From: Clostridia bacterium
GTDB taxonomy: Bacteria > Bacillota > Clostridia > UBA1212
Direction: 5' to 3'
DNA: 51,268 bases
Assembly (NCBI GenBank): GCA_017848335.1
Contig: JAGDAX010000142.1
Span: forward strand, 1-51,268
The notes under the pieces are model-generated. The model searched no databases. It worked only from the letters and a program-made list of their open reading frames with translations, and was not told the origin of the DNA. The position numbers were made by a program, and so were the translations under genes. Positions 1 through 27,555 of the stretch are shown here, piece by piece (position 1 is the first letter of the stretch; the number at the start of each line of letters is the position of its first letter).

Positions 1-3000
1 ATATGCCCGAATCGTCATCGTACGCCATTGGTTTGTCAAGAACGTTCTTCGCAAGCAGCAGCGCCTTGCCCGCGTCCGCCCGCTTTTCAAGCACGTGGAA
101 CTCCACGCCGTCGATGGTAACGGTGTCATCCGAGCCGGGCTCGATTTTACCTATCTTATACTGCCATCCCGGAACCGGGTCGGGGTCGGCAAAGCGCACC
201 CACATCGCCGGGCGGACGCCGATCGGCGGTTGTGTGGTATCGCATTTATAGCTGTGGATAAGACCGTAGTCGGTAACGGTAGCCACGTTATTGTCGTTGT
301 AGCAGGGCGAACGGAGCCACCAACATACACTGTTTCCGTACATGTCTGCCGTCTTCCAGCTTCCGCCGGGAGCGGTGAGCTTGGCGCCGTTATAGGTATA
401 AAACGCGTCGTTCGTAACGTCTTTGCTGTCTTGCTTGCCCCAAATATCGGTTTCGGAAAGCAGGAACACCTTGTCGCTCGATTCGACGGGGTTTGTCTGA
501 TCGTTGTACTTCGCCGCGGTGTATATATCCGCGGGCTCGGCAAGGGCGGCAAGCCGAGTCTTGCCGGCGAGCCATTCGCCGTTGAGCCACTTCTGAATAT
601 CGCTGCCCTCCCATGCCGGGGAATCGGAATCGAACGCCATAGCGGCAACGGTCTCCTTCGTAAGCAGCAGCGCCTTTCCGTCGTCCACCGCGAGGATATA
701 GAACTCCACGCCGTCGATCGTTACGGTTTCAGCCGATCCGGGAACGAAGTTCGCCGCCGCCGCCCTAAGGTCGTAAAGCTCCTTTGACGAAATGCCGCAG
801 TTCTTGCAGGATTCGTAATAAACGGCTGGGTTTTCGCAGTCGGCGGCGGATTTAAGGTATTCCGCGTCGACCTTTTTCACCCATTCGTGCCCCTTCGCGG
901 GGGTGAGAACGGTTTTCGGGTCGGTTATCTGCTTCTTTCCGTCCGCGTCTTCAAACAGCTTGCCGCATTTGGAGCATTCCCAGTGCTGCTTGGCGCAGCC
1001 GCCGGCGGTGCATGCCGCTTCCGACACGGGGCGTTCGATAAGTCTTTCGCCCATATCGCACCAGCATTCGACAACGGTCGCTGCGAGGGAAAAGCGGATT
1101 CGATCATAGCTGTTGCTGAAGAAGAACTCCCAACACGCTTGCTCGGTCCGAGCGTTGTCGGCGACTTTCAGCTCTACAATCACACTGCTTTCGCCGTCGT
1201 GGGTAATGTTGTAGCCGTTATGCAATATATAGGAAACAAAATATACAAACTTGTAGTCGTTTTCGAATACTTCCTTGCTGACGGCGATATCTCTGCCGTC
1301 CTTGGTCTTTAACGGCACCCGCACCCGGATCGTTTCGCCCCTCGGTATGGTTACTTGCGCATTCGATACTTCCCAGACGGTGTCGCCCAACACGGCCTCA
1401 AAGGTCAAGCAACTGAACTGGTTATTGTAATTGCCGCCTAAATACATGATGCTCCCGGCTTTGGATTCGTCTTTATTATACGAATGTTCCCAGCGTCGGC
1501 TTACATCATTAAAGGTCCAAGCCGCGTCCGGCAGATAAGTCGGCTCGAAGGTAATGGTAAGCTGCTTTCTATCATCGCTGCGTTTGGGTGTAAGAAAGTG
1601 TTCCTGCGCGACTGTCAGCGGGCCGTTCGGAGCTCTGTCGGTAAGAATCTGACCGTCGTTTGCGGTCAAACGGACAACTATCTTGTCGCCCACGTGGACC
1701 TGGAACGTGTCGTGATTGCTGCTGCCCGCTGGAGAGTACGTCAGCGGGTATTCCTCCTCCGGTCCGTCGTTCCTGCTCACCCGGCAGGTAACGCGGGGCA
1801 GTATCTCCACCTCTTCCGCCGCGGCGCCGCTGGAATTGACAAAGTACTTTTCGTCGGCGGAAAGACCTCCGCCCTCGGGCGCGGTAACGCAGAGCCACGG
1901 ATCGACGGTGATACCGTTGTACGCGTGCACCGCGTCAAATGACGTCGAAAACGAATGGGGGTAGTCGACCTTTTCCGCCCGGAACGCTAAAAGCTCCTTG
2001 CCGAAGCTGATTTTTTCGTTTGAAGCAACTCCGTGGTTTTCGTACGCGGCGACGTGAATATCGCCGCCGGCAAGGTCGATAGATCCCTGCGTAAAAATCC
2101 CGTTTGCCGCCGCGAGTCTTATCCTCCCGCCGGATATCGTAACTGTATTGCCCGAGCCGTGTGCAAACATCCCGTAGGTATCCACGGCGTCGAGACCGAT
2201 GTCTATATCGACGTCGCCTTCGACCGTAATACTGCCAAAGGTGAAGACGCCGTAGGCGGATGACGATCTGAAGTGCTGTAGCTGATTATACCACGGCTCT
2301 GCCGAAGGATCCTCCTCCGGATACTCCGCTTCGAATTTCACGGTAAGACTGCTGTCCTCATCCAGATAGAATCCTTCAGCCGCATATACCGCGGCTAATT
2401 GTCTCTGACCGATCATGCGCGACAGGGGCATAAAGTTGTAGTGTATGTTGACATCGGCGCCGTTGATGATTTTTAAGCCGTCGTTTATCAAGCCCTCAGA
2501 GGTGCCTATAGGGGCGCAATAGAACCCGCCGGGCGCAATTAAAAATTCATGGTCCGGACCGGAAAAAGCGGCGGAGATACTGCCGCCGTCAATAACAAGG
2601 CTGTATCCTTTTATCGCGCAGAAAAAGCCGACGGCGTTCAGGGCGGCGTCGTCGCTGCCGCCCGAAATGGTAAGCGCTTTACTGCAGAAGACGGCGCGTG
2701 CTTCGGTGATTTCGGCGTCCGTGCCGATGTAGACGATTTTGTTTTCGCCTTTGTATTGGATGTTCAGGACGTCCTTGGAGTATATACCGTAATCTGCCTC
2801 GGCCTTGCCGCCGGTAACGTTTATAACGGCGTCTTCGAGAGTAAGCGTTCTGGTTTGCGGGTCGAAAGACGCCTTGCCCGATTGGAGCAGGGATGAGATA
2901 TCACCGACGTTGTCGCTTGTTATCCTCGTCCCGGAGATCGCAAGCTTGTAATCCGCGGGTCCGTCGTCAGCAAGAACCGTCGTCGGCATTATGCCGACCA

Positions 3001-3064
3001 TTATAATCAGCACCATCAGCATGGCAGCTATTCTGTTGAATCGAATCGATTTTGTTTTTAACAT
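1..3064 (-). CDS. Secreted DUF6273 surface protein (C-terminus beyond window)
   Basis: The minus-strand frame stays open from an ATG at 3064 to the left edge, about 1021 codons, so the C-terminus is missing. An AGAGGAT ribosome binding site lies about 7 bases upstream. The first ~32 residues form a signal peptide (basic start, hydrophobic core, TTVLA-DD cleavage site). Residues ~40-430 are a beta-rich region with recurring SGG and DGG turns, as in parallel beta-helix or carbohydrate-binding segments. Residues ~655-755 hold Cys pairs and an HWECSKCGK motif typical of clostridial adhesin-like proteins. Residues ~775-955 match DUF6273: VTIDGVEFYIL, IQKWLNGEWL, KVFLLSETD, WWLRSP and GVRPAMWV. A second DUF6273 copy starts at ~980 with almost the same VTIDGVEF opening and is cut by the edge. 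Family assignment rests on motif recognition; the ligand is unknown. It has its own promoter at 3175-3202. Confidence 0.85.
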   Translation of the reverse strand, partial: MLKTKSIRFNRIAAMLMVLIIMVGIMPTTVLADDGPADYKLAISGTRITSDNVGDISSLLQSGKASFDPQTRTLTLEDAVINVTGGKAEADYGIYSKDVLNIQYKGENKIVYIGTDAEITEARAVFCSKALTISGGSDDAALNAVGFFCAIKGYSLVIDGGSISAAFSGPDHEFLIAPGGFYCAPIGTSEGLINDGLKIINGADVNIHYNFMPLSRMIGQRQLAAVYAAEGFYLDEDSSLTVKFEAEYPEEDPSAEPWYNQLQHFRSSSAYGVFTFGSITVEGDVDIDIGLDAVDTYGMFAHGSGNTVTISGGRIRLAAANGIFTQGSIDLAGGDIHVAAYENHGVASNEKISFGKELLAFRAEKVDYPHSFSTSFDAVHAYNGITVDPWLCVTAPEGGGLSADEKYFVNSSGAAAEEVEILPRVTCRVSRNDGPEEEYPLTYSPAGSSNHDTFQVHVGDKIVVRLTANDGQILTDRAPNGPLTVAQEHFLTPKRSDDRKQLTITFEPTYLPDAAWTFNDVSRRWEHSYNKDESKAGSIMYLGGNYNNQFSCLTFEAVLGDTVWEVSNAQVTIPRGETIRVRVPLKTKDGRDIAVSKEVFENDYKFVYFVSYILHNGYNITHDGESSVIVELKVADNARTEQACWEFFFSNSYDRIRFSLAATVVECWCDMGERLIERPVSEAACTAGGCAKQHWECSKCGKLFEDADGKKQITDPKTVLTPAKGHEWVKKVDAEYLKSAADCENPAVYYESCKNCGISSKELYDLRAAAANFVPGSAETVTIDGVEFYILAVDDGKALLLTKETVAAMAFDSDSPAWEGSDIQKWLNGEWLAGKTRLAALAEPADIYTAAKYNDQTNPVESSDKVFLLSETDIWGKQDSKDVTNDAFYTYNGAKLTAPGGSWKTADMYGNSVCWWLRSPCYNDNNVATVTDYGLIHSYKCDTTQPPIGVRPAMWVRFADPDPVPGWQYKIGKIEPGSDDTVTIDGVEFHVLEKRADAGKALLLAKNVLDKPMAYDDDSGI

Positions 3065-3107
3065 AAAAAAATCCTCTATGTACAAAGTATTATGGATCAA
3101 TAACATC

Positions 3108-3156
3108 AAAAAAGCACACAGTCCTGCGGGCAGATTCCACCGTTGTGCAATTTTTA
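3108..3156 (-). promoter_or_regulatory. Terminator-like hairpin in the leader of the surface-protein gene
   Basis: On the minus strand a GCACA/TGTGC stem, with an inner CTG/CAG stem, is preceded by an A run and followed directly by TTTTTT. It lies between the promoter at 3175-3202 and the start codon at 3064, so it could act as an attenuator. The outer stem is only 5 bp, which keeps confidence low. No known riboswitch consensus was recognised. Confidence 0.35.
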
Positions 3157-16315: not shown

Positions 16316-16867
16316 TCAGATCTTATCCTGTTTGACCGTGAGTACGTCCGGCCTGTGCTCCCTAAGCCACGCGCAGATCTCGTTTTTAAACTCTCCGGGA
16401 ACAAACACCACGACCGCGTCGGGACGTTTTGTAGGAATGAACGCTACCGTATGCGGACTTATCAGCACGCACGCAAACTGATCCCACGCCTTTTTCGAAG
16501 CGCTCGAGCCGTCGTTTTTCAGCAGCCCGACGCAGCCGTCGTCTAAAGTCAAAGTCTCCGGCGCAAAGCTGTCTTTAAGATTCTTCCATCTCAGGCGCAT
16601 ATTGACGAGCACGGCAACGTTGATTAGCGAGACAGCGGCCATCGAGACGATGCCGATAACTGTCAGAATATCCGGTTTGTTTATGATCGCAAGCACGGCA
16701 AATACCGCGAGCAGCACCAGGCTCCCGATCAGACGCGCCGTAAAACGCCGGTACATGTTTTTAAAACGATAGCGCGGATTCTTCCACATATTCGCGGCCT
16801 GGAGCATAATGTTTACCGCCTCTTTATAGAACTCGTCGCTTTCCCTTTCGTTTAATTCAATTACCAT
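16316..16867 (-). CDS. YcxB-like membrane protein
   Basis: The 183-residue protein has a polar N-terminus, two adjacent membrane spans (residues ~46-64 and ~68-90) and a C-terminal cytoplasmic domain. That domain reads AWDQFACVLISPHTVAFIPTKRP, like the YcxB C-terminal fold (usually 'W..i..v...f.l.....iPk'). Function of YcxB proteins is not known. GAGGAAGG lies just before the ATG at 16867. The start overlaps the last 7 bases of the hydrolase gene upstream, so the two are translationally coupled. The 3' end faces glnS across an inverted repeat. Confidence 0.6.
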   Translation of the reverse strand: MVIELNERESDEFYKEAVNIMLQAANMWKNPRYRFKNMYRRFTARLIGSLVLLAVFAVLAIINKPDILTVIGIVSMAAVSLINVAVLVNMRLRWKNLKDSFAPETLTLDDGCVGLLKNDGSSASKKAWDQFACVLISPHTVAFIPTKRPDAVVVFVPGEFKNEICAWLREHRPDVLTVKQDKI

Positions 16868-17832
16868 AATCCTTCCTCAATTAGTTCATTTATAAAAATA
16901 TTGATTTCCCTGTCGTAGCCTTCTTCGTCGTTTATCCTGATGTGCGAGTGGCCGCCCTTGTCGAACCAGGACACCTTTTTGTGCGGCGATACGCATGAAG
17001 CGTAAAGCTTCCTGCTCTCCTCCGGCAGCGAGAAAATATCCCTGGTCGTGTAGATAAACAGTATAGGCTTTTGGAGCTTTTTGACCGCCTTGTAGGGCCC
17101 GTTGGAGATGCCTTTGGCGCCAGTCAGAATATAATGTATCAGCATCACCTGGTAGCACACCGGGAAGATCGGCTTGCTGCGCTCCTTCATGTGATTCTTG
17201 AAGGTCTCAAAGAAATTTTTGAACATTCCGTCGACGCAAAGACCGTTAAAATAGTCCGGGCATTCCTCGGCTGTGACCGTAAAGACAGCGGTCTGCGCGC
17301 CTATGCATATACCGTGAAGAAATACCGATTCGTTTCCGAACCTGTCGTGAAGGAGCTGCCCCCACTTGATGACGTCCCGGTATTCCTTGTATCCCAGCGA
17401 ATAATATTTTCCGTCGGAAAATCCAGTTGCCCGCATGTCGATGACCAGCACGTTGAAGCCGGCTTTCCTGTAAGGCTCCGCGAAATAGTAAGAATAGGCC
17501 AGGCTCTCGGTGCGTCCCGGTATGATAATGACCGCCCTTTTTGCGCCGAAGTCGAAATACTCGGCAAAAAGCCTGAGACCGTCGTTTTCGATCTCAAGAG
17601 GCGTTATGCGTTCCCTGTGCTGCTCCGCAAACTCAAGTCCTTTGTTGAACATAAGCAGCTGCTCCGGGTCGTCAGGCCAGGAGCATTTGCGCTCCCGGGG
17701 CTCCTTTTCGGGCCTTGAAAGAGTTCCCTCAAAGACCTTGTACGCGATAAGGAAAGTGAATCCGATGCCGAACAGCAGACCTGACGCCGCAACGATCCCG
17801 ACTGTTAAAACAATAATTTCAAAAACGTTCAT
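16861..17832 (-). CDS. Membrane-anchored alpha/beta hydrolase with Cys at the nucleophile elbow
   Basis: The 323-residue protein has an N-terminal membrane anchor (residues ~5-32) and an alpha/beta-hydrolase domain. The oxyanion region reads AVIIIPGRTES. The nucleophile elbow reads HGICIGAQ with Cys176 where Ser is usual (GxSxG becomes GxCxG), as in dienelactone hydrolase. Asp265 (YTTRDIFSLPE) and His295/297 (GGHSH) complete a possible triad. The paralogue at 20743-21690 has the same layout but a normal GISMG. It follows fakA by 9 bases and overlaps the YcxB-like gene, so it is part of the lipid operon. Substrate unknown; a lipid or acyl ester is a reasonable guess from context only. Confidence 0.85.
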   Translation of the reverse strand: MNVFEIIVLTVGIVAASGLLFGIGFTFLIAYKVFEGTLSRPEKEPRERKCSWPDDPEQLLMFNKGLEFAEQHRERITPLEIENDGLRLFAEYFDFGAKRAVIIIPGRTESLAYSYYFAEPYRKAGFNVLVIDMRATGFSDGKYYSLGYKEYRDVIKWGQLLHDRFGNESVFLHGICIGAQTAVFTVTAEECPDYFNGLCVDGMFKNFFETFKNHMKERSKPIFPVCYQVMLIHYILTGAKGISNGPYKAVKKLQKPILFIYTTRDIFSLPEESRKLYASCVSPHKKVSWFDKGGHSHIRINDEEGYDREINIFINELIEEGLW

Positions 17833-17841
17833 AAAGCTTTT

Positions 17842-19602
17842 TTAAACCACCGCGATAATATAATCGGCTATCTCCTGACCGCCTTCCAAAACGATGAATT
17901 CGATGTCCGGGAATGCGTCCCCGAGTGCCGAAACAACGCCCTCCGTGACATTCTCGTCCGTATGCCCGCCCGCAAAAATGAGAGCGGTCTCCATATCGCC
18001 TATATTGCCGCAGCGCCTGAGCGAATCCACGGCCACCCTTGCCGGTGAAGACTCGTCGGAGGCTACGATTATCTCGCTGACGATCCCTATAAAGTCTCCC
18101 TTTTTGCAAACAACGGAGTCGTTGTGATAATCCCTTGAGGCTCTGGCGATGGTCACGGGCACGGAGCACTTGACAATGCCCTCGATAAGCTTGACGCGCT
18201 CCTCCACGGAGAGCGTGGGATTGTCCGCGGCTATCCCGAAATAGCAGGCCGCCTGGTTGGGCGCGGGTATTATAATCGTGTTTCTGTCATCGGTGATGCC
18301 GATGGCCTGCCTTGCCGCGAAAATAATATTCGGGTTGTCCGGGAAAAGTATGATCGTGCCCTCGGAGGAAACCTTGCGGATCTTTTTTATGCAGCTGACG
18401 AACTCGCCGGAAGAGGTGTTCATGGTGCTGCCGCCGTCGATGACGATATCAGCGCCGCACTCGGAAAGAAACGAAATAGCGCCCTTGCCTGTCGCCACCG
18501 CGATCTTGTATATGTCCTTCACGGGAAGCACACACTCGCTGCCGCCGGAGAGGTTCGCACTGTCACCGGAGAGGTTCGCCCCTTCGCCCGGGGCCATTGC
18601 GCCTGCCGCCGGTTCTCTCCCGGACTGCTTCCCGGCGTCGCTTAGCGAGTTGTGCTGGATGCACATATTCTCGAGCTTGAAGGTCACGAATTCGCCGTAG
18701 TTCTGGGCCAGCTCGATAATGCGGGCAGGCTTGAAGGTGTGGACGTGTACCTTGATGCGCGAGCCGAGCCTTGAGGTGACCACGGAATTGCCCAGCCTTT
18801 CGAGATCGTCCGTGAACGAAGGCAGGTTGAAGGTGGAAATGTAATTCGCTCCCCTCATAAGCTGCAGCAGGAATTCCATGCAATAGCCGAACTTGAATTC
18901 GGTATTCTCGTTGAAATTGACGTTGGAAAGGTTGATGACAGCGCTTCTTTCGGTCTCCGACGGCTCGTCCTTAAAGTCAGCGACGTAATTCCGGTCGTTG
19001 AGATATTCGAGCATGCCCTCAAAAATGTAAAGAAGGCCCATGCCGCCGCTGTCCACCACGCCGGCCTCCTTCAGCACCGGCAGAAGCTCCGGAGTATTGG
19101 CCAGCGAAATCTTAAGCCTCGCAACGTACATGCCCAGAAGCACCTCAAAGGAGCAGCCCCTTGCAAGCTGGGGCCTTATCATCTCAATGCCTTCTCTGGC
19201 AACGGTCAGAATGGTTCCCTCCTTGGGAGACCTGCAGCCCTGATAGGCCGCCTTGTACGCGTGAATAAGAGCGGACGCCATCGACATGGGACCCATGGAC
19301 TCATACCGTCTGAGACTTCTTGCGAACCCGTCAAAGAAATTGGACACGATGACGCCGGAATTGCCTCTGGCGCCCATGACCATACCGTCGGCCATTGAGC
19401 GCAGGTACGCGTTCAGCTTATCGGTCTTTTCGGCTGAATTTATCCCGTTAATGAGAGTCAGCCTGATATTGGTGCCCGTGTCGCCGTCGGGTACGGGGAA
19501 AACGTTGAGTGAATTGACCTCCTGCTCGTGCTCCTTGATCCGTCTGAGCGCGCCGTGCATCATTCCTTCGAACGTTGTTCCGTTAATGCGATATGTTGCC
19601 AT
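17842..19602 (-). CDS. fakA: Fatty acid kinase catalytic subunit FakA (DAK2/YloV family)
   Basis: The 586-residue protein starts with a DhaK-like DAK2 kinase domain: NVFPVPDGDTGTN (residues ~33-45) supplies the Asp residues for magnesium-ATP, followed by GARGNSGVIVSNFF and VDSGGMGLL. The middle and C-terminal DegV-like YloV domain includes IVIDGGSTMNTSSGEF and IIIPAPNQAA. FakA phosphorylates fatty acids bound to FakB (DegV) to give acyl-phosphate. A DegV gene lies directly upstream, which makes the pair convincing. Residues ~325-350 form a low-complexity linker in which ANLSG is repeated, matching a 14-15 bp DNA repeat at 18545-18580. GGAG precedes the ATG at 19602. Confidence 0.92.
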   Translation of the reverse strand: MATYRINGTTFEGMMHGALRRIKEHEQEVNSLNVFPVPDGDTGTNIRLTLINGINSAEKTDKLNAYLRSMADGMVMGARGNSGVIVSNFFDGFARSLRRYESMGPMSMASALIHAYKAAYQGCRSPKEGTILTVAREGIEMIRPQLARGCSFEVLLGMYVARLKISLANTPELLPVLKEAGVVDSGGMGLLYIFEGMLEYLNDRNYVADFKDEPSETERSAVINLSNVNFNENTEFKFGYCMEFLLQLMRGANYISTFNLPSFTDDLERLGNSVVTSRLGSRIKVHVHTFKPARIIELAQNYGEFVTFKLENMCIQHNSLSDAGKQSGREPAAGAMAPGEGANLSGDSANLSGGSECVLPVKDIYKIAVATGKGAISFLSECGADIVIDGGSTMNTSSGEFVSCIKKIRKVSSEGTIILFPDNPNIIFAARQAIGITDDRNTIIIPAPNQAACYFGIAADNPTLSVEERVKLIEGIVKCSVPVTIARASRDYHNDSVVCKKGDFIGIVSEIIVASDESSPARVAVDSLRRCGNIGDMETALIFAGGHTDENVTEGVVSALGDAFPDIEFIVLEGGQEIADYIIAVV

Positions 19603-19626
19603 GTTTATACTCCGTCAAGAGCTTGC

Positions 19627-19734
19627 GCCTGAAATTAAAGTGCGTGAAAATTGAAGTGCCCGAAAATTGAAGTTCCCGAAACCTGAGTGCCTGAAATCTG
19701 AAATTCCCGAACACCTAAGTGCCCGAAACAGGCC
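19627..19734 (+). repeat. 15-16 bp tandem array, seven units, degV-fakA gap
   Basis: Contiguous units follow GCCCGAAAATTGAAGT, for example GCGTGAAAATTGAAGT and TCCCGAACACCTAAGT. The GTGCC-GAAA core resembles arrays at 4921-5106 and 49212-49259. Confidence 0.85.
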
Positions 19735-19753
19735 GTACGAAGACTGCGCCGTT

Positions 19754-19819
19754 TGCCGTCAGCGCCTGCCGTCAGCCGCTTGATGTCAAAGCTTAACGTA
19801 AGCCACCTGCCGTCAGCGC
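19754..19819 (-). repeat. Repeats containing the degV stop codon
   Basis: On the minus strand GCGCTGACGGCAG occurs at 19807-19819, where its TGA is the degV stop, and recurs almost unchanged at 19766-19779 and 19754-19765 past the gene end. Confidence 0.75.
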
Positions 19820-20739
19820 TTGCTGAGCCTCTCGTAAATCTCGGTTTCCTCCTTGAGATCCTTCGAAAGAGGTTTTCCTACGTAATATGCCGCCATGATG
19901 CCGGGGCCCGCGTTGGTGCCGCTGGCTCTGAATATGTCCGTGTAGTAAATTTCCCTGGGATTGTATCTTTCCCTGATCATATCCAGATATTTGAGCGCCT
20001 GCTCCCTGCGGTCGGATCCGGCCACGAGGATCACCTGATTTTCGGGATCCTCAATGGTTTCGCCGATGTAATCGAGCAGCACCTTATACGCGGATTTTTC
20101 ACCCTTAACCTTGCAAAGCACGGTGGTGAGTCCGGATTCGGAAAAATCGCCCACGGGCTTGATGCCTATGAGAGTTCCCATAAACGCTTTGGCATTGGAA
20201 ATGCGGCCCTTCTTGGCGGTAAACGCCAGGTCGTCATGCCAGCCGGCCTGATGAATACGGGGCTTAATGGCCTCCGCGTAAAGGTAGGTGTCGTAAAGAC
20301 TCACTCCCTGGCTTCTTTTGACTGCCGCCAGTACCGCGAGAAGGCCTGCGCCCGTCGCGAACTTCCTCGAATCCACGAGGTATACCTGGGCGTCCGGGTA
20401 TTCCTTGAGGACCTTTTCCTTCGCGCTGGTGGCAAAATCAAACGTGCCGCTCATTGCGGAGGTCATGCAGGTGTAGAAAATGCCGGTGCCCTTCTCGGCG
20501 TACCTTTTAAAGTGCTCGTATATCTCCATAACGGAGGGCGGCGACGTGTGGTAACCGTCAGGATTCTTGCGAAGCTTGGAATAGAATTCCTCGCTTGAGA
20601 CGGCCTCCCAGTCAAGTGTGGTGGGAATTTCCGAGCCGTCCGGAAGCGCCCAGTGCCCCGGAATATAATCAATGTCAAACTTCTCTCTGATGTCCTGCGA
20701 AAGGTCACAGGTGACGTCTACAATTATTGCGAAATCCAT
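19813..20739 (-). CDS. DegV family fatty-acid-binding protein (FakB-like)
   Basis: The 308-residue protein has the two-lobed DegV fold. The N-terminal VDVTCDLSQDIREKFDIDYIP, the SPPSVMEIYEHF segment with SPPS before a variable loop, and YTCMTSAMSGTF (where Ser/Thr contact the fatty acid carboxylate) are all present, as is the late FRASGTNAGPGIMAAYYVGK. DegV proteins bind fatty acids and present them to FakA. Position immediately upstream of fakA supports a FakB role. GGAG precedes the ATG at 20739. It starts 3 bases after the hydrolase gene ends. Confidence 0.92.
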   Translation of the reverse strand: MDFAIIVDVTCDLSQDIREKFDIDYIPGHWALPDGSEIPTTLDWEAVSSEEFYSKLRKNPDGYHTSPPSVMEIYEHFKRYAEKGTGIFYTCMTSAMSGTFDFATSAKEKVLKEYPDAQVYLVDSRKFATGAGLLAVLAAVKRSQGVSLYDTYLYAEAIKPRIHQAGWHDDLAFTAKKGRISNAKAFMGTLIGIKPVGDFSESGLTTVLCKVKGEKSAYKVLLDYIGETIEDPENQVILVAGSDRREQALKYLDMIRERYNPREIYYTDIFRASGTNAGPGIMAAYYVGKPLSKDLKEETEIYERLSKR

Positions 20740-20742
20740 AAT

Positions 20743-21690
20743 TCAATTCTCCTGTTCAAAAATTTTGCCAAGGAAAGCGCGAAGCCGCCCTGTGATCAAG
20801 CCGCGTCCCGCAAGGAACGCCTCGGCATGAGCAGCGCCCTCCACTATTACCAGATCTTTAATATCGCCGCCGAGAATATTGTATCGCTCCTCGGAGTCGG
20901 AAACCGGCACGAATTTGTCCGCTTCGCCCTGAATAATGAACGCCGGAATATTCACCCCGGCAAGCTCCGCGTTGGTGTCGCGCTTGATGTCAACTCCCAG
21001 GAATAACCGCCCGGCCAGGTACGAAACCCCCGAAAGCAGCGGCGTGTTCCGTCCGAAATTGGCGGCCAGAAGCGAATTGTATATGCTCTCGTAGCCGCTC
21101 TTGTAACCGCACTCCAGCACCAGAAATCTGATCTCCGGCACCTTCTGCAGCTCCTTCGCGGAGTAGCATACGGTGGCGCAGCCCATGGATATCCCGAAAA
21201 TTCCGATATCCGCGCCGGGGCTTCTGCCGCGAAGGTAATCCACCCAGCACAGCAGGTCGCCGCTCTCCCTGATCCCGAAGGTAATGTATTTACCGCCGCT
21301 TTCAAAATGCGCCCTGTGCGAAACGAGCAGAATATTGAAGCCCAGCTCCATGAAGGTCAGAAAGGCCGCGTGTACGTTATTGAAGGGAATCGCCCTGTAT
21401 CCGTGAAGAGCGATCACCGTCCTGTCGCTTCCGAAATCGTAATACCTGGCAGCCAGCGTGATACCGTCCTTCGATTTGATCCTCACCGGCTCGTAAGGAA
21501 TCTTCCGGATCTCGTCAAGAGCATCCCTGAGCTCCTTCTCGTACGGTGCGTAATGGGTCTTCGACAGATCCAGCGTCTCCAGCGGGATCTCCCTGCCGCG
21601 GTGGTAGGTCTTGAAAAGCCCGTACAAAAGGAAACCGAGCACAGGCATTATCACCAATATCAATATTCCTGCGAAGATATAATAGATCAT
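20743..21690 (-). CDS. Membrane-anchored alpha/beta hydrolase, canonical Ser nucleophile
   Basis: The 315-residue protein starts MIYYIFAGILILV, an N-terminal membrane anchor, followed by an alpha/beta-hydrolase core. IALHGYRA is the oxyanion loop, FGISMGCA (Ser168) the nucleophile elbow, QGEADKFVPVSDSE the acid and GAAHAEA the His. ATG 21690 is chosen because AAGGA lies 7 bases upstream; a longer open frame to 21858 is built from repeat DNA and is not credible. It belongs to the same family as the hydrolase at 16861. It sits between acp and degV. A lipid or ester substrate is likely but not shown. Confidence 0.88.
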   Translation of the reverse strand: MIYYIFAGILILVIMPVLGFLLYGLFKTYHRGREIPLETLDLSKTHYAPYEKELRDALDEIRKIPYEPVRIKSKDGITLAARYYDFGSDRTVIALHGYRAIPFNNVHAAFLTFMELGFNILLVSHRAHFESGGKYITFGIRESGDLLCWVDYLRGRSPGADIGIFGISMGCATVCYSAKELQKVPEIRFLVLECGYKSGYESIYNSLLAANFGRNTPLLSGVSYLAGRLFLGVDIKRDTNAELAGVNIPAFIIQGEADKFVPVSDSEERYNILGGDIKDLVIVEGAAHAEAFLAGRGLITGRLRAFLGKIFEQEN

Positions 21691-21804
21691 TCGGAATCCT
21701 TTATTCTGCGGATGTTTGTGCCCGTTTGAAGCTTTTGTAGCTCTGTACAGCCCATTTAACCGATTGCAGCCGGAAAGAGCACTGCTTAAAAACGGCAGGC
21801 AAAG

Positions 21805-21931
21805 GAGCACGGGAGCATGGGTGCAAATGAGCGCGGGTGCATGGGTGCAAATGAGCACAGGCGCTCAGACAGTGCCCAAACAGTGAGCAAACAGTGAGCA
21901 AAAAGTGAGCAAAAAGTGAGCAAAAAGCTCA
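21805..21931 (-). repeat. 24-bp and 11-bp tandem arrays starting at the ACP stop codon
   Basis: On the minus strand the ACP stop lies in GGC-TGA-GCTTTTTGCTCAC, and TTTTTGCTCAC or TGTTTGCTCAC is then repeated about five times. A two-copy 24-bp repeat follows (21805-21852). The array creates a false signal-peptide-like frame. Confidence 0.9.
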
Positions 21932-22183
21932 GCCCTGTTTCTGCCTCTCAATAAACGTCACCACGTCGCCCAGCGTCCTGAAATCGTTCATCTGCGTGCC
22001 GTCAAAGCTGACGTCAAAATCGTTCTCGATCACAATGATGAGATAAATCATACCGACGGACGAAAGACCGAAATAATCAAGCAGCCCCGATTCCTCGGTG
22101 CCGGCATTTATCCTGTCGGCGTCGCCCGGATTCTGGTAAATCAGTATCTCTTTAAGATGGTCAGCGATTTCTTTTCTGCTCAT
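21929..22183 (-). CDS. Acyl carrier protein
   Basis: This 84-residue acidic four-helix protein carries the phosphopantetheine motif FGLSSVGMIYLI, with Ser42 as attachment site; the usual Asp before it is Ser41. The downstream ENDFDVSF and TLGDVVTFIE segments are standard ACP helices. It is not next to fab genes, so it is probably a dedicated carrier for this cluster rather than the housekeeping ACP. Its ATG overlaps the TGA of the upstream acyl ligase (ATGA, 22180-22183), which suggests coupled, roughly equal expression with that ligase, its likely charging enzyme. AAAGGA precedes the start. Confidence 0.92.
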   Translation of the reverse strand: MSRKEIADHLKEILIYQNPGDADRINAGTEESGLLDYFGLSSVGMIYLIIVIENDFDVSFDGTQMNDFRTLGDVVTFIERQKQG

Positions 22184-23715
22184 TGATTGTTGTCCTTTGC
22201 GAATTTGTTATATCTCTTGATCTTCATTGCCGGCGTTCTCTCGAAGTCCTCCTTGCGAACGGTCACTCTGGCGGGACGCTGGTAGGACGGAAGCGACTCG
22301 GTCACCTTGCTGATCTCGCCGAGGAGAGTATTCTCGCGAACGTCCTCGGGTACCTTGGCGAGCTCGGACTCTCTTGCCACCACCTCGAGATGGAGGAAGT
22401 GCGGCCCGTCGCCGTCCGCGTCTTCAAACAGCTGGCAGTCCCTGACGTAGGGGCTCTCGTTGTAAAGGGCCTCCACCTCCTGCGGCGAAACGTTCAGACC
22501 GTTGGAAAGGATGATGACCTCCTTGATTCGCCCGACAATATAAAGGAAACCGTCCTCGTCGAACCTCACCAGATCGCCGGTCTTGAACCAGCCGTCCTCC
22601 GTGAATGCGTTCCGGGTCTCCTCGGGGTCGCCCACGTATTCCTTCATGATATTGACGCCCTTGAGGAGCAGCTCGCCGTTCTCGGTCTTCAGCTCCTGCC
22701 ACGGATAAGGCAGACCTACGGAGCTGGGCTTCTCAAGCGGCATGGGATTTCCGGACACCAGATTGGCCGACTCGGTCAGGCCGTAGCCCGGATAAAGATC
22801 GATTCCAAGCTTCTTGAACTCCCTGATAAGGTAAGGCGGCACGAAGGCGGCTCCGCAAATGATGGTCTTGACCGTGCCGAGCATGTTGCGCTTAAACATG
22901 CCGGAGAGGCCCAGAGCCATCTCGGCAAGCGCCGGGACGGTCACCAGAACGGTGGGGTTGTAATAGCCCACGTCCTTGAACAGATCCTTGTTATTGTTGC
23001 AGAAGCAGAGCGTGCTGCCAGTGTAGATCGAGGTCATAAGATTGCGGACAAGCCCGAAAACGTGTGAAAACGGCAGGCACAGAATGTATTTCTGGAAGAA
23101 AACGTCCCTCACGCCGTAGCAGCCGTAAAGAGCACCCGCCGCGATATTTGCGTGCGTGAGAAGAGCGCCCTTGCTTCGGCCGGTGGTGCCGCCGGTGAAC
23201 ATAATGACACACTCGTCGCCGCCCTTAACGTCGGCGCATTCCGCGACGGGCTCAGCCTTTTCGTTCACGTCAATTATCGCGAAGGCAGGCATTTTAAGCT
23301 TCAGCACGGACAGCTTTTCCTCGTACTCCTCACCGGTAATGAGGGCCTTGAGTCCGAACTTGTATGAGACGCCGAAAACGGTCATCGCGTCAAGCTGGGG
23401 CGGAAAAACAGCCGCCGTGATACCGAGACTTGCAAGAGCAAAAAAGGCTTTGACAAACTCGGGAGAATTTCTGTAAAGAATACCGGCTCTGTCGCCCTTT
23501 TTGAGTCCCCTGGCCAGTAAAACGCCCTTGAATTCATTGATGCGCGCGTCAAGCTCGCTGTAGGTAAGCTCGGCCTCGTGATCCTTCAGGGCAACCGCGT
23601 CGCCGTACTCTTTGGCGCTCAGCCACATATCTTTTACGGAATCAAATAATTTGAGCTTCGAAAAGGTTTCTTCGTCCGTGAACTTCGCGAACATACTCGC
23701 GTCTGCTATATACAT
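22180..23715 (-). CDS. AMP-forming acyl-CoA/acyl-ACP synthetase
   Basis: The 511-residue ANL-family enzyme activates a carboxylic acid as acyl-AMP and transfers it to a thiol. The A3 loop is canonical: FTGGTTGRSKGA (173-184). GYGLTES (A5), WFKTGDL (A7), GRIKEVI (A8 hinge) and the C-terminal Lys in TPAMKIKR are intact. Length fits medium- or long-chain fatty acyl or aryl acid ligases. Because its stop overlaps the start of a stand-alone ACP gene, acyl-ACP synthetase activity is more likely than CoA ligase, though sequence alone cannot tell. GAGGATG precedes the ATG. Downstream of it are the ACP and hydrolase; upstream are two PlsC genes. Confidence 0.92.
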   Translation of the reverse strand: MYIADASMFAKFTDEETFSKLKLFDSVKDMWLSAKEYGDAVALKDHEAELTYSELDARINEFKGVLLARGLKKGDRAGILYRNSPEFVKAFFALASLGITAAVFPPQLDAMTVFGVSYKFGLKALITGEEYEEKLSVLKLKMPAFAIIDVNEKAEPVAECADVKGGDECVIMFTGGTTGRSKGALLTHANIAAGALYGCYGVRDVFFQKYILCLPFSHVFGLVRNLMTSIYTGSTLCFCNNNKDLFKDVGYYNPTVLVTVPALAEMALGLSGMFKRNMLGTVKTIICGAAFVPPYLIREFKKLGIDLYPGYGLTESANLVSGNPMPLEKPSSVGLPYPWQELKTENGELLLKGVNIMKEYVGDPEETRNAFTEDGWFKTGDLVRFDEDGFLYIVGRIKEVIILSNGLNVSPQEVEALYNESPYVRDCQLFEDADGDGPHFLHLEVVARESELAKVPEDVRENTLLGEISKVTESLPSYQRPARVTVRKEDFERTPAMKIKRYNKFAKDNNQ

Positions 23716-23764
23716 AATCCATCCTCACTTTATATTTGCCAAAATCCAAAACCGCCTTGAAACC

Positions 23765-24538
23765 TCAGTCAACCAGAGATTTCAAATATTCCTCTTTTTG
23801 TCTGATCAGGAGAGACACCTCGTCAATACGTTCCATTGTGGGATATTTTCCAAGCATTCCGCATACGTCTACAGGCTCGCCGACAGCGACCCGGAGCCTC
23901 TGAAAAATATTGGCGCGTCTCTTGATGTAAACAGGCCAGATCGGCACCCCGCCCTGAAAGGCCATGAGCACCATGCCCGACTTTAAATTATCCACTATCT
24001 GCTGATTTTTTGCAAGTTCTTTTTCGTCATCCGTCCTCACCACGTGGCCCTCCGGAAACAGTGCCACCAGCCCGCCCTGCCTGAGCTCCGAGGTGATGGC
24101 CTTAAAGGAGCTGACGCCGAAATTGTCGCGATTGATGGGAATGCACAGAAATGACTTGAAGAGCCACTTGTTGAAGCGGTTTGAGATAAGCTCGTCCGTG
24201 CAAACGTAATGGTGCCGCCTGTACCAGATCGTCAGCATAAGATACATTGGATCCAGCACCGAAATGTGGTTGCTGACCAAAAGGCCGCCGCCCTTAAAAC
24301 GCTTCTTCGCGTTTTCGTTCTCATAGTACTTCCTGGGTCTGTACCAGATAAGGCCGGGCCACGCAGTGAAACGGACAAAATCATAGACAAAATATTTCAT
24401 GGCTATTTTACGGCTTGAGGCGGCTCTGTGCGCTTTTGACGACTTGTTCGGCGTCCCTTTCGGCACGTCCTTTAGAGCGTCTTTCGGCGCTCCTTTTGAC
24501 ATTTCCTTCGGCTCTCCGTCAGGTATTTCGTTTGTCAT
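23765..24538 (-). CDS. 1-acyl-glycerol-3-phosphate acyltransferase family protein (PlsC 1)
   Basis: This 257-residue LPLAT-family enzyme transfers an acyl chain to a lysolipid. The HX4D site is NHISVLD (His91, Asp96) and the substrate-binding motif is FPEGH (~161). IPINRDN and IWPVYI are further family elements. Residues 1-46 are an odd low-complexity tail with KGAPKDALKDVPKGTP repeats (DNA 24430-24530), absent from normal PlsC proteins; the functional start could be Met47 at 24400, but neither start has a strong ribosome binding site. It lies 49 bases upstream of the acyl ligase gene in the same operon. Confidence 0.88.
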   Translation of the reverse strand: MTNEIPDGEPKEMSKGAPKDALKDVPKGTPNKSSKAHRAASSRKIAMKYFVYDFVRFTAWPGLIWYRPRKYYENENAKKRFKGGGLLVSNHISVLDPMYLMLTIWYRRHHYVCTDELISNRFNKWLFKSFLCIPINRDNFGVSSFKAITSELRQGGLVALFPEGHVVRTDDEKELAKNQQIVDNLKSGMVLMAFQGGVPIWPVYIKRRANIFQRLRVAVGEPVDVCGMLGKYPTMERIDEVSLLIRQKEEYLKSLVD

Positions 24539-24662
24539 CCCGATCCGCAGTCTCCCTTCGTGCGGCCTTGCCGGCCTTGCTTATTTACAACTCACCGTTA
24601 TAGTTTCAAGTTTACCGTTTTCAGCTTCCGGCTTGCCGTTTTCGGTTTACATTTTACCGTCA

Positions 24663-24742
24663 GCCGTTTTCAGCTGTCGTTTGCCGTTTTCAGCTGTCGT
24701 TTGCCGTTTTCAGCTATTGTTTGCCGTTTTCAGCGTCCTTTT
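24663..24742 (-). repeat. 20-bp tandem array overlapping the 3' end of the second plsC gene
   Basis: Four contiguous units follow GCCGTTTTCAGCTGTCGTTT on the plus strand. The rightmost unit contains the plsC stop codon (24730-24732). More degenerate copies extend left to about 24596. Confidence 0.9.
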
Positions 24743-25368
24743 TCCGCCGCGGCAAGCTCGTTCCCCAGCTCGCGGATCCTGTCCCTCAGAAGCTCCGAGC
24801 ACGCCTCAAGATTGTCGCGCACGCTCAGGGCCTCGTCGTAGTGTTCCGTAAGATCTATGCGCTCACCCACCATGACCCTTGACCTTTTGAACAGCCTGAA
24901 ATATTGAGGCTCGATATAGACCGGAATTACCGGAACCTCGCTTGTGAGCGCGATATAAGCGCAGGAGGTCTTGAAGGGCAGCGGCTTTTCCTCCCCGGGC
25001 AGCGGGATCCTCGACTCCGGGAAAATGCCTGCCACGCCGCCCTTATCGAGAATTCTCTGAGTCTCGTGAATAAAATCCACGCTGTTGCGCTCCCTGTCCA
25101 CGCGAATCATCCCCAGAGGCTTAAGCAGCCATTTGAGCGACTTCTTTCCGTAAAGAACCTCTGCCGCCTGGACCCTTACCGTGCGCCTCCAGAAAAGGAA
25201 AAGCAATATCACGTAGTCAAATATCTGGTTGTGATTCGCGACAATGATCGCCGGTCCTTTGATCTTGTTCCTCGTTTTTCCGTCAACGTAACGCACCTTC
25301 ATATTGAAAAACATGAAGGCCGGAAGAATTCCCGTTATTTTTACGAACCAGTTGAACAGCTTGATCAT
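24730..25368 (-). CDS. Lysophospholipid acyltransferase family protein (PlsC 2)
   Basis: The 212-residue LPLAT protein has a hydrophobic N-terminus (membrane association), HX4D as NHNQIFD (His46, Asp51) and FPESR (~117), where most PlsC have FPEGT. The paired arrangement with PlsC 1 suggests two successive or alternative acylations. AAGG precedes the ATG at 25368, 33 bases after the ligase-ACP fusion gene ends. The last codons and stop fall in a tandem repeat. Substrate, whether lysophosphatidate or another acceptor, is unknown. Confidence 0.88.
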   Translation of the reverse strand: MIKLFNWFVKITGILPAFMFFNMKVRYVDGKTRNKIKGPAIIVANHNQIFDYVILLFLFWRRTVRVQAAEVLYGKKSLKWLLKPLGMIRVDRERNSVDFIHETQRILDKGGVAGIFPESRIPLPGEEKPLPFKTSCAYIALTSEVPVIPVYIEPQYFRLFKRSRVMVGERIDLTEHYDEALSVRDNLEACSELLRDRIRELGNELAAAEKGR

Positions 25369-25401
25369 GGCAATACCTTGAGGCTCCTATTCCGTCTGCT
25401 T

Positions 25402-27555
25402 TTACTTGGCATCTGCCCGGGCTTCCCGGAGATATTCCAGTATCGAAAGGCCCGTCGTAAACCGCCTGCCTTCAGTCTCGGTAAAACCGGTCCCGAACCT
25501 TTCCTCGAGAAGACTTATCATCTGATAATAGTCAAGCGAAGTCCCGCCCAGATCCTTAAAAAAGTCAGTCGCCGGCTTGACTTCACCGGCTTCAATACCG
25601 ATCACCTCCGCGAATATTTCCGCGGCAGTCCGAAGGTCGGCGTCATCCGCAATAAGACCTACCGCGCCTTCAGGTGCTTTTTGATCGGGGGCCGCGCCTT
25701 CACGTGAGTTTGAGGCAGCCTCCGCGGCTGATTTCTCCTCAGGTCCATTATGCCGGCTCCACTGCAACACGTCGGCTATTTCGCCGCTTATGAGCTTGCT
25801 GCGAATCTTGCTGCGGCTCACCTTGAAGTCGGATTTCGGCATCAGCTCAGCCTCAGTCAGAATGATCTCAGTGATCCTGCCGGTGAGAGAACGCTTTGCG
25901 ACGGTCTCCTTGACCTTATCGCGAATCATCTCAATTTCGGCGGCCCCGGCGCCCTTCCCGATCTGGCCGACCAGCACGGCGCCCTCCGAAAGACCCTTCA
26001 CGATGCAAAGATCCAAAAGCCCCGTGTCGGTAAAATATTTCTCCGCAATATTCGGGTTGAGATTTTCGCCGTCCGGCAGCACGATCACGTCGTCCGCCCT
26101 GCCGTCGATCCAGTAATAGCCATTCTCTTCACGCGCCAGGTCGTTGGTCTTGAACCACTCGTCATTGCCGCGGGGAACGCCGTTCTCGACGATCACCCTT
26201 GCCATAATATTGCCCTTGATCCAAAGAATCCCGTCACCGTCGATCCTGTGTGTGACGCACCTCATAGTGTGGCCCACGGAGCCCTTGATGACCTTACGAA
26301 CCTGCGGCCTCAGCTCGACGCAGGATATCCCGGTCTCAGTCATACCGTAGCCGTTTACGAGCCTGTAGCCGATATAGTTGAAGAACCTGAGGACCTCGGG
26401 CCTGATGGCGCCGCCGCCGCTTATAAGGAAGCAGATCGAATCCCCGAAAAGGTTATCCCGCACCTCCCTGAAGGCGATTCGCGAGAATAGCGTCCCCGCC
26501 GCGTTTCCGACCAGCGGAACTGAGTACAGAAAATCGCAGAGCCGGAACGCCTTTTCGAGCCTTCCGTAGGAATTCCTGTCTTTGACGGTCTTGACGGCGC
26601 TTTCGTAAATCTTGTCCCAGAATAAGGGCACCGCGAATATATGCGTCACGTGCCTCAGCCTCACCGTATCGAGAAGAGTGTCCGGCCGCAGGTCTTTTAA
26701 GAAAACGAAGCTCCTGGAATAAAACGAAAACCAGATATAGACCGCCACAAGCCCGAAAATATGATAAAAAGGCAAAAAGCAGAGGTGCTTCAATTCGCCC
26801 CTGAAGTGCTTTTTGATAAGCCTGTTCTTGCGGATGATCTCAAAGGAATATGAGATCTGATCGTGTATCGCCGCCGCATCGAAGCAGCAAAGCTTTATAT
26901 TCTGCGACGTGCCGGAGGTCATCAGGATAATGAACTCAGCGAAGCCGCGGGACTTTCTCCGTTCGTCAAAGCCAGAATATTTTCCAGGCTCATCGCAGCC
27001 CCGGAAGCATCCACGCTCATCGCAGCCCCGGGAGCTTCCACGCTCATTGCAGACGGCGGCCGATAACTCCCTTGTGCGCATAAGAGCGTCATCATATAGC
27101 TTCGACGCGATAATATGATTCCTGCCGGGAGCGTCCTCCGAGTCGCATATGACGAAATCAACCTTTTGCCTGTCAAGTATTGAATCAAGCTCATCCGGGG
27201 GAATCATAAGATTCATAAGCAAAGGATTGATGCCTGAAATGATAAGAGCCCAGAACACCTCTATCCAGAGGACGCTGTTGCTCATGTAAATGCCGCAGGT
27301 CACGGACTCCGAAAGCCCGGGCACCGCGCCTGAGAGAATATGATCGGAGAGCATCAATATCTCACGCTGACATTCGCCGTAAGTCTTGCGGATCACCTTC
27401 AGCCCGCTGTAAGTCTCCGAGAGTATGTTGTCCTTTTCGGAAAACATAAGCTCGAAAAGCGATTCGAAGGATATACCCATCTGGTCGAATCGCTCAAGCT
27501 TCTTTTTGACGTATTCGTTTACGCTGCGGGCGTTGCCGATGTTTTTTAGATGCAT
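25402..27555 (-). CDS. Acyl-adenylate ligase fused to an acyl carrier protein
   Basis: The 717-residue protein has an ANL ligase (residues ~1-600), an Ala/Glu-rich linker (~605-635) and an ACP domain (~637-717) with DLGGTSLDYYQM, Ser ~673 as phosphopantetheine site. The ligase core keeps FLPFYHIFGL, GYGMTETG and a hinge GRADDVIV. Its A3 loop is altered: TSGTSQNIKL (213-222) instead of TSGTTGxPKG, keeping only the Thr/Ser and Lys; A7 reads TND rather than TGD. Residues ~172-207 hold four 9-residue repeats rich in Arg, Gly, Cys. It resembles the ligase at 44587 more than the one at 22180. Likely self-loads its ACP, or is a regulatory or acceptor scaffold. No ribosome binding site is visible at the ATG, so the start is uncertain. 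Confidence 0.87.
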   Translation of the reverse strand: MHLKNIGNARSVNEYVKKKLERFDQMGISFESLFELMFSEKDNILSETYSGLKVIRKTYGECQREILMLSDHILSGAVPGLSESVTCGIYMSNSVLWIEVFWALIISGINPLLMNLMIPPDELDSILDRQKVDFVICDSEDAPGRNHIIASKLYDDALMRTRELSAAVCNERGSSRGCDERGCFRGCDEPGKYSGFDERRKSRGFAEFIILMTSGTSQNIKLCCFDAAAIHDQISYSFEIIRKNRLIKKHFRGELKHLCFLPFYHIFGLVAVYIWFSFYSRSFVFLKDLRPDTLLDTVRLRHVTHIFAVPLFWDKIYESAVKTVKDRNSYGRLEKAFRLCDFLYSVPLVGNAAGTLFSRIAFREVRDNLFGDSICFLISGGGAIRPEVLRFFNYIGYRLVNGYGMTETGISCVELRPQVRKVIKGSVGHTMRCVTHRIDGDGILWIKGNIMARVIVENGVPRGNDEWFKTNDLAREENGYYWIDGRADDVIVLPDGENLNPNIAEKYFTDTGLLDLCIVKGLSEGAVLVGQIGKGAGAAEIEMIRDKVKETVAKRSLTGRITEIILTEAELMPKSDFKVSRSKIRSKLISGEIADVLQWSRHNGPEEKSAAEAASNSREGAAPDQKAPEGAVGLIADDADLRTAAEIFAEVIGIEAGEVKPATDFFKDLGGTSLDYYQMISLLEERFGTGFTETEGRRFTTGLSILEYLREARADAK
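26961..27054 (-). repeat. In-frame 27-bp repeats inside the ligase-ACP gene
   Basis: Three and a half 27-bp units encode GSSRGCDER, GCFRGCDEP and GKYSGFDER-type peptides, placed just before the adenylate-binding loop. The two central DNA copies are nearly identical, so the expansion is recent. The frame is kept. Confidence 0.9.

Follow-up and report, generated by a model that had tools for sequence, protein, structure and literature searches.

In Escherichia coli, the LplT-Aas system of Gram-negative bacteria re-acylates lysophospholipid (PMC11416262), and among the sphingolipid genes of Rhodobacteria an acyl ligase adjoins a private acyl carrier protein (ACP) (PMC9386255). The other described systems closest to our subject are the FakA-FakB-PlsX route for exogenous fatty acids of Staphylococcus and Enterococcus, the AasS-type ligases, and the PLAAT/HRASLS and LRAT enzymes. 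Here we analyse a locus at positions 16861–27555 of a 51,268-nucleotide stretch of DNA from a Clostridia bacterium of the lineage UBA1212 (contig JAGDAX010000142.1; this whole stretch is referred to as the window), in which acyl ligases, acyl carriers, PlsC-type acyltransferases, homologues of FakA and DegV, and hydrolase-like enzymes stand side by side. On balance, we favour the reading that this gene set serves acyl salvage and re-acylation, as a dedicated intracellular unit at the membrane's inner face. It would resemble LplT-Aas in the way it works but does not belong to that system. A literature search that left out most subscription journals returned no published description of such an operon.

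For a fatty-acid-requiring, lipid-degrading Butyrivibrio from the rumen, PMC6784871 cites Hazlewood and Dawson (1979), and complete loss of fatty-acid synthesis is described for the uncultured gut lineage RF39 (PMC6784871). The locus offers named genes with which to study how such cells build their membranes, also in the apparently cultured Ruminococcaceae bacterium P7 (locus L086), and it may help to choose between free fatty acid and lysolipid as the supplement on which lineages without type II fatty-acid synthesis (FASII) would grow.

Organisation of the locus

Gene families were assigned with Pfam and NCBIfam models and their cut-offs. The open reading frame (ORF) map of the window shows nine genes on the minus strand, separated by short gaps or overlapping, which read from 27555 to 16861 as follows:

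25402–27555, minus strand: LIGACP, an AMP-binding (ANL) acyl ligase with a C-terminal acyl carrier domain (PF00501, 111 bits; PF00550, 39 bits), the first gene of the unit
24730–25368, minus strand: PlsC2, a lysophospholipid-type acyltransferase (PF01553, 73 bits)
23765–24538, minus strand: PlsC1, a second lysophospholipid-type acyltransferase (PF01553, 71 bits)
22180–23715, minus strand: LIG, a canonical AMP-binding acyl ligase (PF00501, 203 bits)
21929–22183, minus strand: free ACP (PF00550, 23 bits, above cut-off), overlapping LIG by 4 bases
20743–21690, minus strand: HYD_B, an N-terminally anchored serine alpha/beta-hydrolase (GxSxG) of S33 type (PF12146, 36 bits)
19813–20739, minus strand: DegV, a FakB-like protein (PF02645, 170 bits)
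17842–19602, minus strand: FakA/YloV, a homologue of the fatty acid kinase catalytic subunit (TIGR03599, 415 bits)
16861–17832, minus strand: HYD_A, an N-terminally anchored alpha/beta-hydrolase of S33 type with Cys176-Asp265-His295

An earlier note on this DNA had described co-directional, close-packed genes of these families, and the Pfam and NCBIfam assignments bear it out, except that it counted eight genes where its own list held nine. The nine genes are presumably co-transcribed; a terminator scan gave no excess over chance, and the candidates from a promoter scan were unconvincing. The ORF of HYD_B (20743–21858, 371 aa) opens with a GTG at 21858, and the start is more probably at 21690, since part of the intervening stretch is a tandem repeat.

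The gene set is conserved in other Clostridia

A LIGACP profile run against GTDB genomes found 290 relatives, of which the best 80, by design the closest, were kept; judged by their titles, nearly all of these are gut and rumen Clostridia. Together with earlier relatives they yielded 94 distinct loci, mapped with family models, and the gene set was counted in those 61 loci whose sequence runs on for 9.5 kb or more past LIGACP. They come from several families of Clostridia, and many of the carriers are uncultured. The canonical gene order is kept in 58 of these 61 loci, and 40 hold all nine genes. PlsC2 is present in all 61, DegV, FakA and HYD_A in 58 each, the ACP in 57, PlsC1 and HYD_B in 53 each, and LIG in 47, while the flanking genes mostly differ from locus to locus. 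Since the locus proteins are often less than 40% identical between relatives, the persistence of so many genes together is strong evidence for a functional unit. The family models were trained on these same loci and thus easily recruit weak members; the order test is independent of that effect. Non-conservation of the set elsewhere, which the earlier note had named as the outcome that would speak against its proposal, was not what we found, and a chance gathering of lipid genes was ruled out by the 58 conserved orders.

More distant carrier genomes hold a smaller core of LIGACP, PlsC2, DegV, FakA and HYD_A. No plasmid-borne copies were found other than distant ligases of Fusobacterium and Ilyobacter. 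A variant unit in L136–L138 (f43/g58 genomes, FabF present) consists of LIGACP, a PlsC2 enlarged to ~466 aa, DegV, HYD_A, FakA and a ligase of 850 aa, and has a glycosyltransferase-like gene beside it.

Ligases, acyl carriers and acyltransferases keep their catalytic motifs

The P-loop, the A8 region and the catalytic lysine of ANL ligases are all kept in the locus, with the P-loop and Lys498 conserved in LIG. In LIGACP, Lys578 of the ligase and Ser673 of the carrier domain are invariant in 13 relatives, and Ser673 is found in at least 98.5% of 89 members; the phosphopantetheine serine of the free ACP, Ser42, is kept in at least 98.5% of 67 members. Both acyltransferases exceed the PF01553 cut-off and carry HX4D and FPEG-type motifs, conserved as N45-H46-x4-D51 and FPE (FPES in the window) in PlsC2 and as N90-H91-x4-D96 and FPEG in PlsC1. 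Under TIGR00530 (AGP_acyltrn) the pair stays below cut-off (58.3 and 58.7 versus 102.95 bits), and AGP_acyltrn and the Aas-type PRK08633 (62.8 versus 1221 bits) are the best models for the two proteins, though far under cut-off.

We propose that LIG and LIGACP, with ATP, would load acyl chains onto the acyl carriers of the locus, namely the free ACP and the LIGACP carrier domain, and that PlsC1 and PlsC2 would attach the acyl groups to glycerol lipids or lysolipids. The combination of acyl-ACP synthetase with PlsC-type transferase, joined in many relatives by an MFS transporter, is that of LplT-Aas. The two systems differ in that Aas is one polypeptide, whereas the window and the mapped relatives have separate ORFs; in that the locus brings two ligases, two transferases, its own acyl carriers, FakA/DegV and hydrolase-like enzymes; in the PRK08633 score; and in that there is no LplT, relatives having an MFS_2/GPH protein instead and the window no transporter.

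The placing of an acyl ligase beside a private ACP is also shared with the Rhodobacteria sphingolipid genes and with AasS-type ligases, but the partners here are PlsC, FakA, DegV and hydrolase-like enzymes. A sphingolipid-type ligase-ACP pairing was ruled out, as the unit has no (serine) palmitoyltransferase gene. Outside the operon, the window has a third acyl ligase, LIG3 (44587–46347, minus strand), which is related to LIGACP without its carrier domain, adjoins YbeY-PhoH, and is kept within the genus and beyond it, in other families (L043, L044, L045).

Most carrier genomes lack fatty-acid synthesis

Among 38 relatives of the window, FabH, FabF and FabZ were found in none of the 15 that carry LIGACP, four of which are members of the window's genus and 95–97% complete, while FabF was found in 10 of the 23 non-carriers (Fisher p=0.003, kinship uncorrected). 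In further carriers FabF lies above cut-off in 22 of 75 genomes, as against 291 of 393 Clostridia; the completeness of these 75 genomes is not stated, so some of the FabF absences may be assembly gaps. FASII loss is thus much commoner in carriers, but the link is not absolute. A strict tie to FASII loss is refuted by the FabF-positive carriers, together with five class-level carriers of one genus that also have FabF. That carriers usually lack fatty-acid synthesis fits the earlier note's view that the fatty acids used are external or recycled.

The FabF-positive carriers also bear on another explanation, that the locus serves housekeeping repair only, as a Gram-positive functional counterpart of Aas that re-acylates self-generated lysolipids and has no role in uptake. 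LplT-Aas does such re-acylation in E. coli (PMC11416262), the window locus has no transporter, and the best-scoring models of PlsC1 and PlsC2 include the Aas-type one. The enrichment in FASII-less genomes points the other way, as does the presence of FakA and DegV, families whose known members use free fatty acids, and we consider repair alone quite improbable.

The locus adds to a housekeeping set and has a divergent FakA/DegV pair

The window's genome holds a second FakA, which scores 522 bits to the 415 of the locus FakA and lies in a FakA-DegV-PlsX-ACP cluster, the canonical FakA-FakB-PlsX-ACP arrangement. The genome also has another PlsX-ACP pair, a PlsY inside the window, and a higher-scoring PlsC elsewhere. 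With FakA, FakB, PlsX, ACP and PlsC present separately, the locus is an additional, dedicated set and not the housekeeping system.

The locus FakA is above cut-off for PF02734, PF21645 and PF13684, as well as for TIGR03599 (415 versus 396 bits); at the stricter equivalog cut-off of FakA_VfrB (975) it falls short with 300 bits. Residues D39, D41, T42, C241, H286 and H288 are conserved in 66 members, and these conserved residues are kept in the match to PDB 7w7h (E=3e-76), a dihydroxyacetone kinase-related kinase paired with a DegV-family chain. The locus DegV family keeps T65, S97 and R179, which we take to be Thr61, Ser93 and Arg170 of FakB in S. aureus numbering. At two other FakB positions, presumably His266 and Arg202 in the same numbering, the window DegV has Asn in place of His and Glu in place of Arg; across the family the first position is Asn or Ser and the second is in most members Ala or Glu, while both FakB residues are present in the housekeeping FakB of the window's genome. 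In S. aureus FakB2, changing that His reportedly costs much of the activity. As DegV lacks the His and the Arg, the locus pair need not form acyl-phosphate, though it could possibly provide a second activation route of this kind.

The locus thus resembles FakA-FakB-PlsX in its FakA motifs, its DegV-family partner and, in some relatives, a PlsX inside the locus, and differs from it in that its pair is a second, divergent one, without the FakB His and Arg, joined to ligases and PlsC enzymes. What the earlier note had proposed as a dedicated lipid-acylation system with its own acyl carriers and two ligases agrees with the conserved unit and its catalytic motifs; its ordinary FakAB kinase does not survive, given the DegV residues and the separate canonical cluster.

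One genome (L139 and L140, on G000:C161 and C23) has two PlsX-ACP clusters, one of them with the full FakA-FakB set, and FabH, FabF and FabZ were not detected in it. In several relatives (G017:C91, G028:C160, G029:C261 and G008:C16), acyltransferase domains occur in ORFs of ~590–680 aa, each with a second acyltransferase ORF 2–3 kb away, possibly another lipid system.

HYD_A has an invariant cysteine nucleophile

The nucleophile elbow of HYD_A reads GxCxG and not the GxSxG of a serine alpha/beta-hydrolase of the lysophospholipase or monoacylglycerol lipase type, and the Cys is present in 61 of 61 aligned members; Asp265 and His295 are likewise conserved, divergent relatives included. HYD_B has GxSxG, with Ser224, Asp314 and His344 conserved (numbering of the 371-aa ORF). 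An AlphaFold2 model of HYD_A (pLDDT 93.3) shows an esterase/monoacylglycerol-lipase fold, nearest to the Pf2001 esterase (Z 31.2, rmsd 2.3 over 265 residues), with the thioesterase DcsB and the hydrolase GrgF as further structural neighbours. We take the latter two to be enzymes of natural-product pathways with a cysteine nucleophile. HYD_A is therefore a cysteine-type enzyme that may be a transferase or a thioesterase, since a cysteine would suit acyl transfer or the cleavage of a thioester better than plain lipolysis. The "two anchored hydrolases" of the earlier note accordingly fit HYD_B and need amending for HYD_A. Basic residues follow the N-terminal helix of HYD_A, which by the positive-inside rule suggests that its catalytic domain faces the cytoplasm.

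The invariant cysteine, in favouring acyl transfer, would also suit a pathway to one special membrane lipid (a glycolipid, ether lipid or amino lipid), in which acyl chains of an unusual kind are supplied and attached by ligases, acyl carriers and PlsC enzymes, with the hydrolase-like enzymes as transferases of that pathway and not as salvage enzymes. Two PlsC enzymes and two acyl carriers beside the housekeeping PlsC, PlsX, ACP and FakA suggest a private channel, and in L036, L042, L134 and L136–L138 the locus has glycosyltransferase-like neighbours. We nevertheless regard this as rather unlikely: the unit has no conserved gene for a head group, and the strong enrichment in FASII-less genomes points to ordinary fatty acid supply.

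DcsB and GrgF, with their presumed natural-product origin, raise in turn the idea that the locus supplies acyl chains for a secreted secondary metabolite or signal, such as an N-acyl or polyketide-like product, for which ligase-carrier fusions are typical. With no synthetase, condensation or export gene conserved in the unit, and with a gene order that hardly varies across widely differing genomes, whereas such clusters are patchy, there is very little chance of this.

Relatives carry a PLAAT-like enzyme and a transporter

C0, a gene held by 51 of the 61 loci and lying mostly between ACP and HYD_B, encodes an LRAT/PLAAT-like domain with an invariant His and an NCEHF motif; many genomes have this domain joined to a phosphopantetheinyl transferase (PPTase) of the Sfp type. 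Its closest matches are Sfp and the PLAAT3/HRASLS phospholipase A/acyltransferases, PLAAT3 being the best match in the PDB. It differs from the PLAAT/HRASLS and LRAT enzymes in being bacterial and often PPTase-fused, and is missing from the window. The fusion was seen at L034:11496–12749 and in other C0 loci, and in several FabF-positive carriers the C-terminal part of C0 is degenerate-looking or missing.

C1, found between DegV and FakA or otherwise beside FakA in 34 of the 61 loci, is an MFS_2/GPH transporter of the MelB/MFSD2 group. For its predicted model (pLDDT 84), Foldseek ranked MFSD2A, a lysophosphatidylcholine symporter, first and MelB next, whereas VIA-align placed both in a tie with other MFS folds. 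By sequence, a single-sequence search matched MFSD2A alone, while the family profile found neither MFSD2A nor MelB and matched only SUC1, weakly; with the structure rankings also in disagreement, assignment of a substrate from sequence was dropped. C1 mostly occurs where FabF is missing: there it is present in 36 cases and absent in 10, as against 2 and 20 where FabF is present, and all seven forecasts made in advance were correct.

The window has short tandem repeats at 19632–19729, 21799–21927 and 24609–24734, in gaps between operon genes, and at 26983–27052, inside LIGACP. Two of the gaps are:

19603–19812: gap of ~210 bases at the place of C1, with 16/31/47-base repeats
21697–21928: gap of ~230 bases at the place of C0, with 11- and 24-base tandem repeats

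As these repeat-bearing gaps lie at exactly the places of the two genes in the gene order of relatives, the window looks to have shed both C0 and C1.

Proposed function

In the acyl-salvage and re-acylation that we favour, fatty acids would come from outside the cell or from its own lipids, freed or passed on by the anchored HYD_A and HYD_B according to the direction in which these work, before loading by the ligases and transfer by the PlsC enzymes. In relatives, C1 would import a lipid or lysolipid, the LRAT/PLAAT-like enzyme of C0 would move or release acyl chains, and the fused PPTase would activate the acyl carriers.

Several observations weigh against this proposal. FabF in 22 of the 75 further carriers means that the system cannot be just a substitute for a lost synthesis pathway, and 13 of the 38 relatives lack both FabF and the locus. 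The window locus itself has neither a transporter gene nor an LRAT gene. No locus gene specifies the acceptor, and phosphatidate, a lysophospholipid, a glycolipid and a non-membrane product all fit. Correction for kinship leaves no more than 3 to 7 independent contrasts for the association of C1 with absence of FabF, which is then not significant and thus a lead and not proven.

A wider proposal, which we put forward tentatively, is that Clostridia which require fatty acids have in the locus a self-contained way of making membrane lipids out of lysolipids or acyl chains that they scavenge. Two private PlsC enzymes would then be fed by the divergent FakA/DegV pair, by the two ligases with their carriers, by a PLAAT-like enzyme and by an alpha/beta-hydrolase that transfers acyl groups through its cysteine; FASII-less lineages would add an MFSD2-like importer of lysolipids.

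Neighbouring genes

Upstream of the nine-gene unit lie FolD and FtsK. At its other end, outside the conserved unit, is one further gene:

16316–16867, minus strand: a membrane protein of 183 aa, whose gene shares 7 bases with HYD_A

A Pfam scan gave this protein no family above cut-off; it lies beside HYD_A in a single further locus from the genus (L031, identical to L046). At the edge of the window, an open-ended ORF of at least 1036 aa (2–3109, minus strand) begins with a secreted-looking leader.

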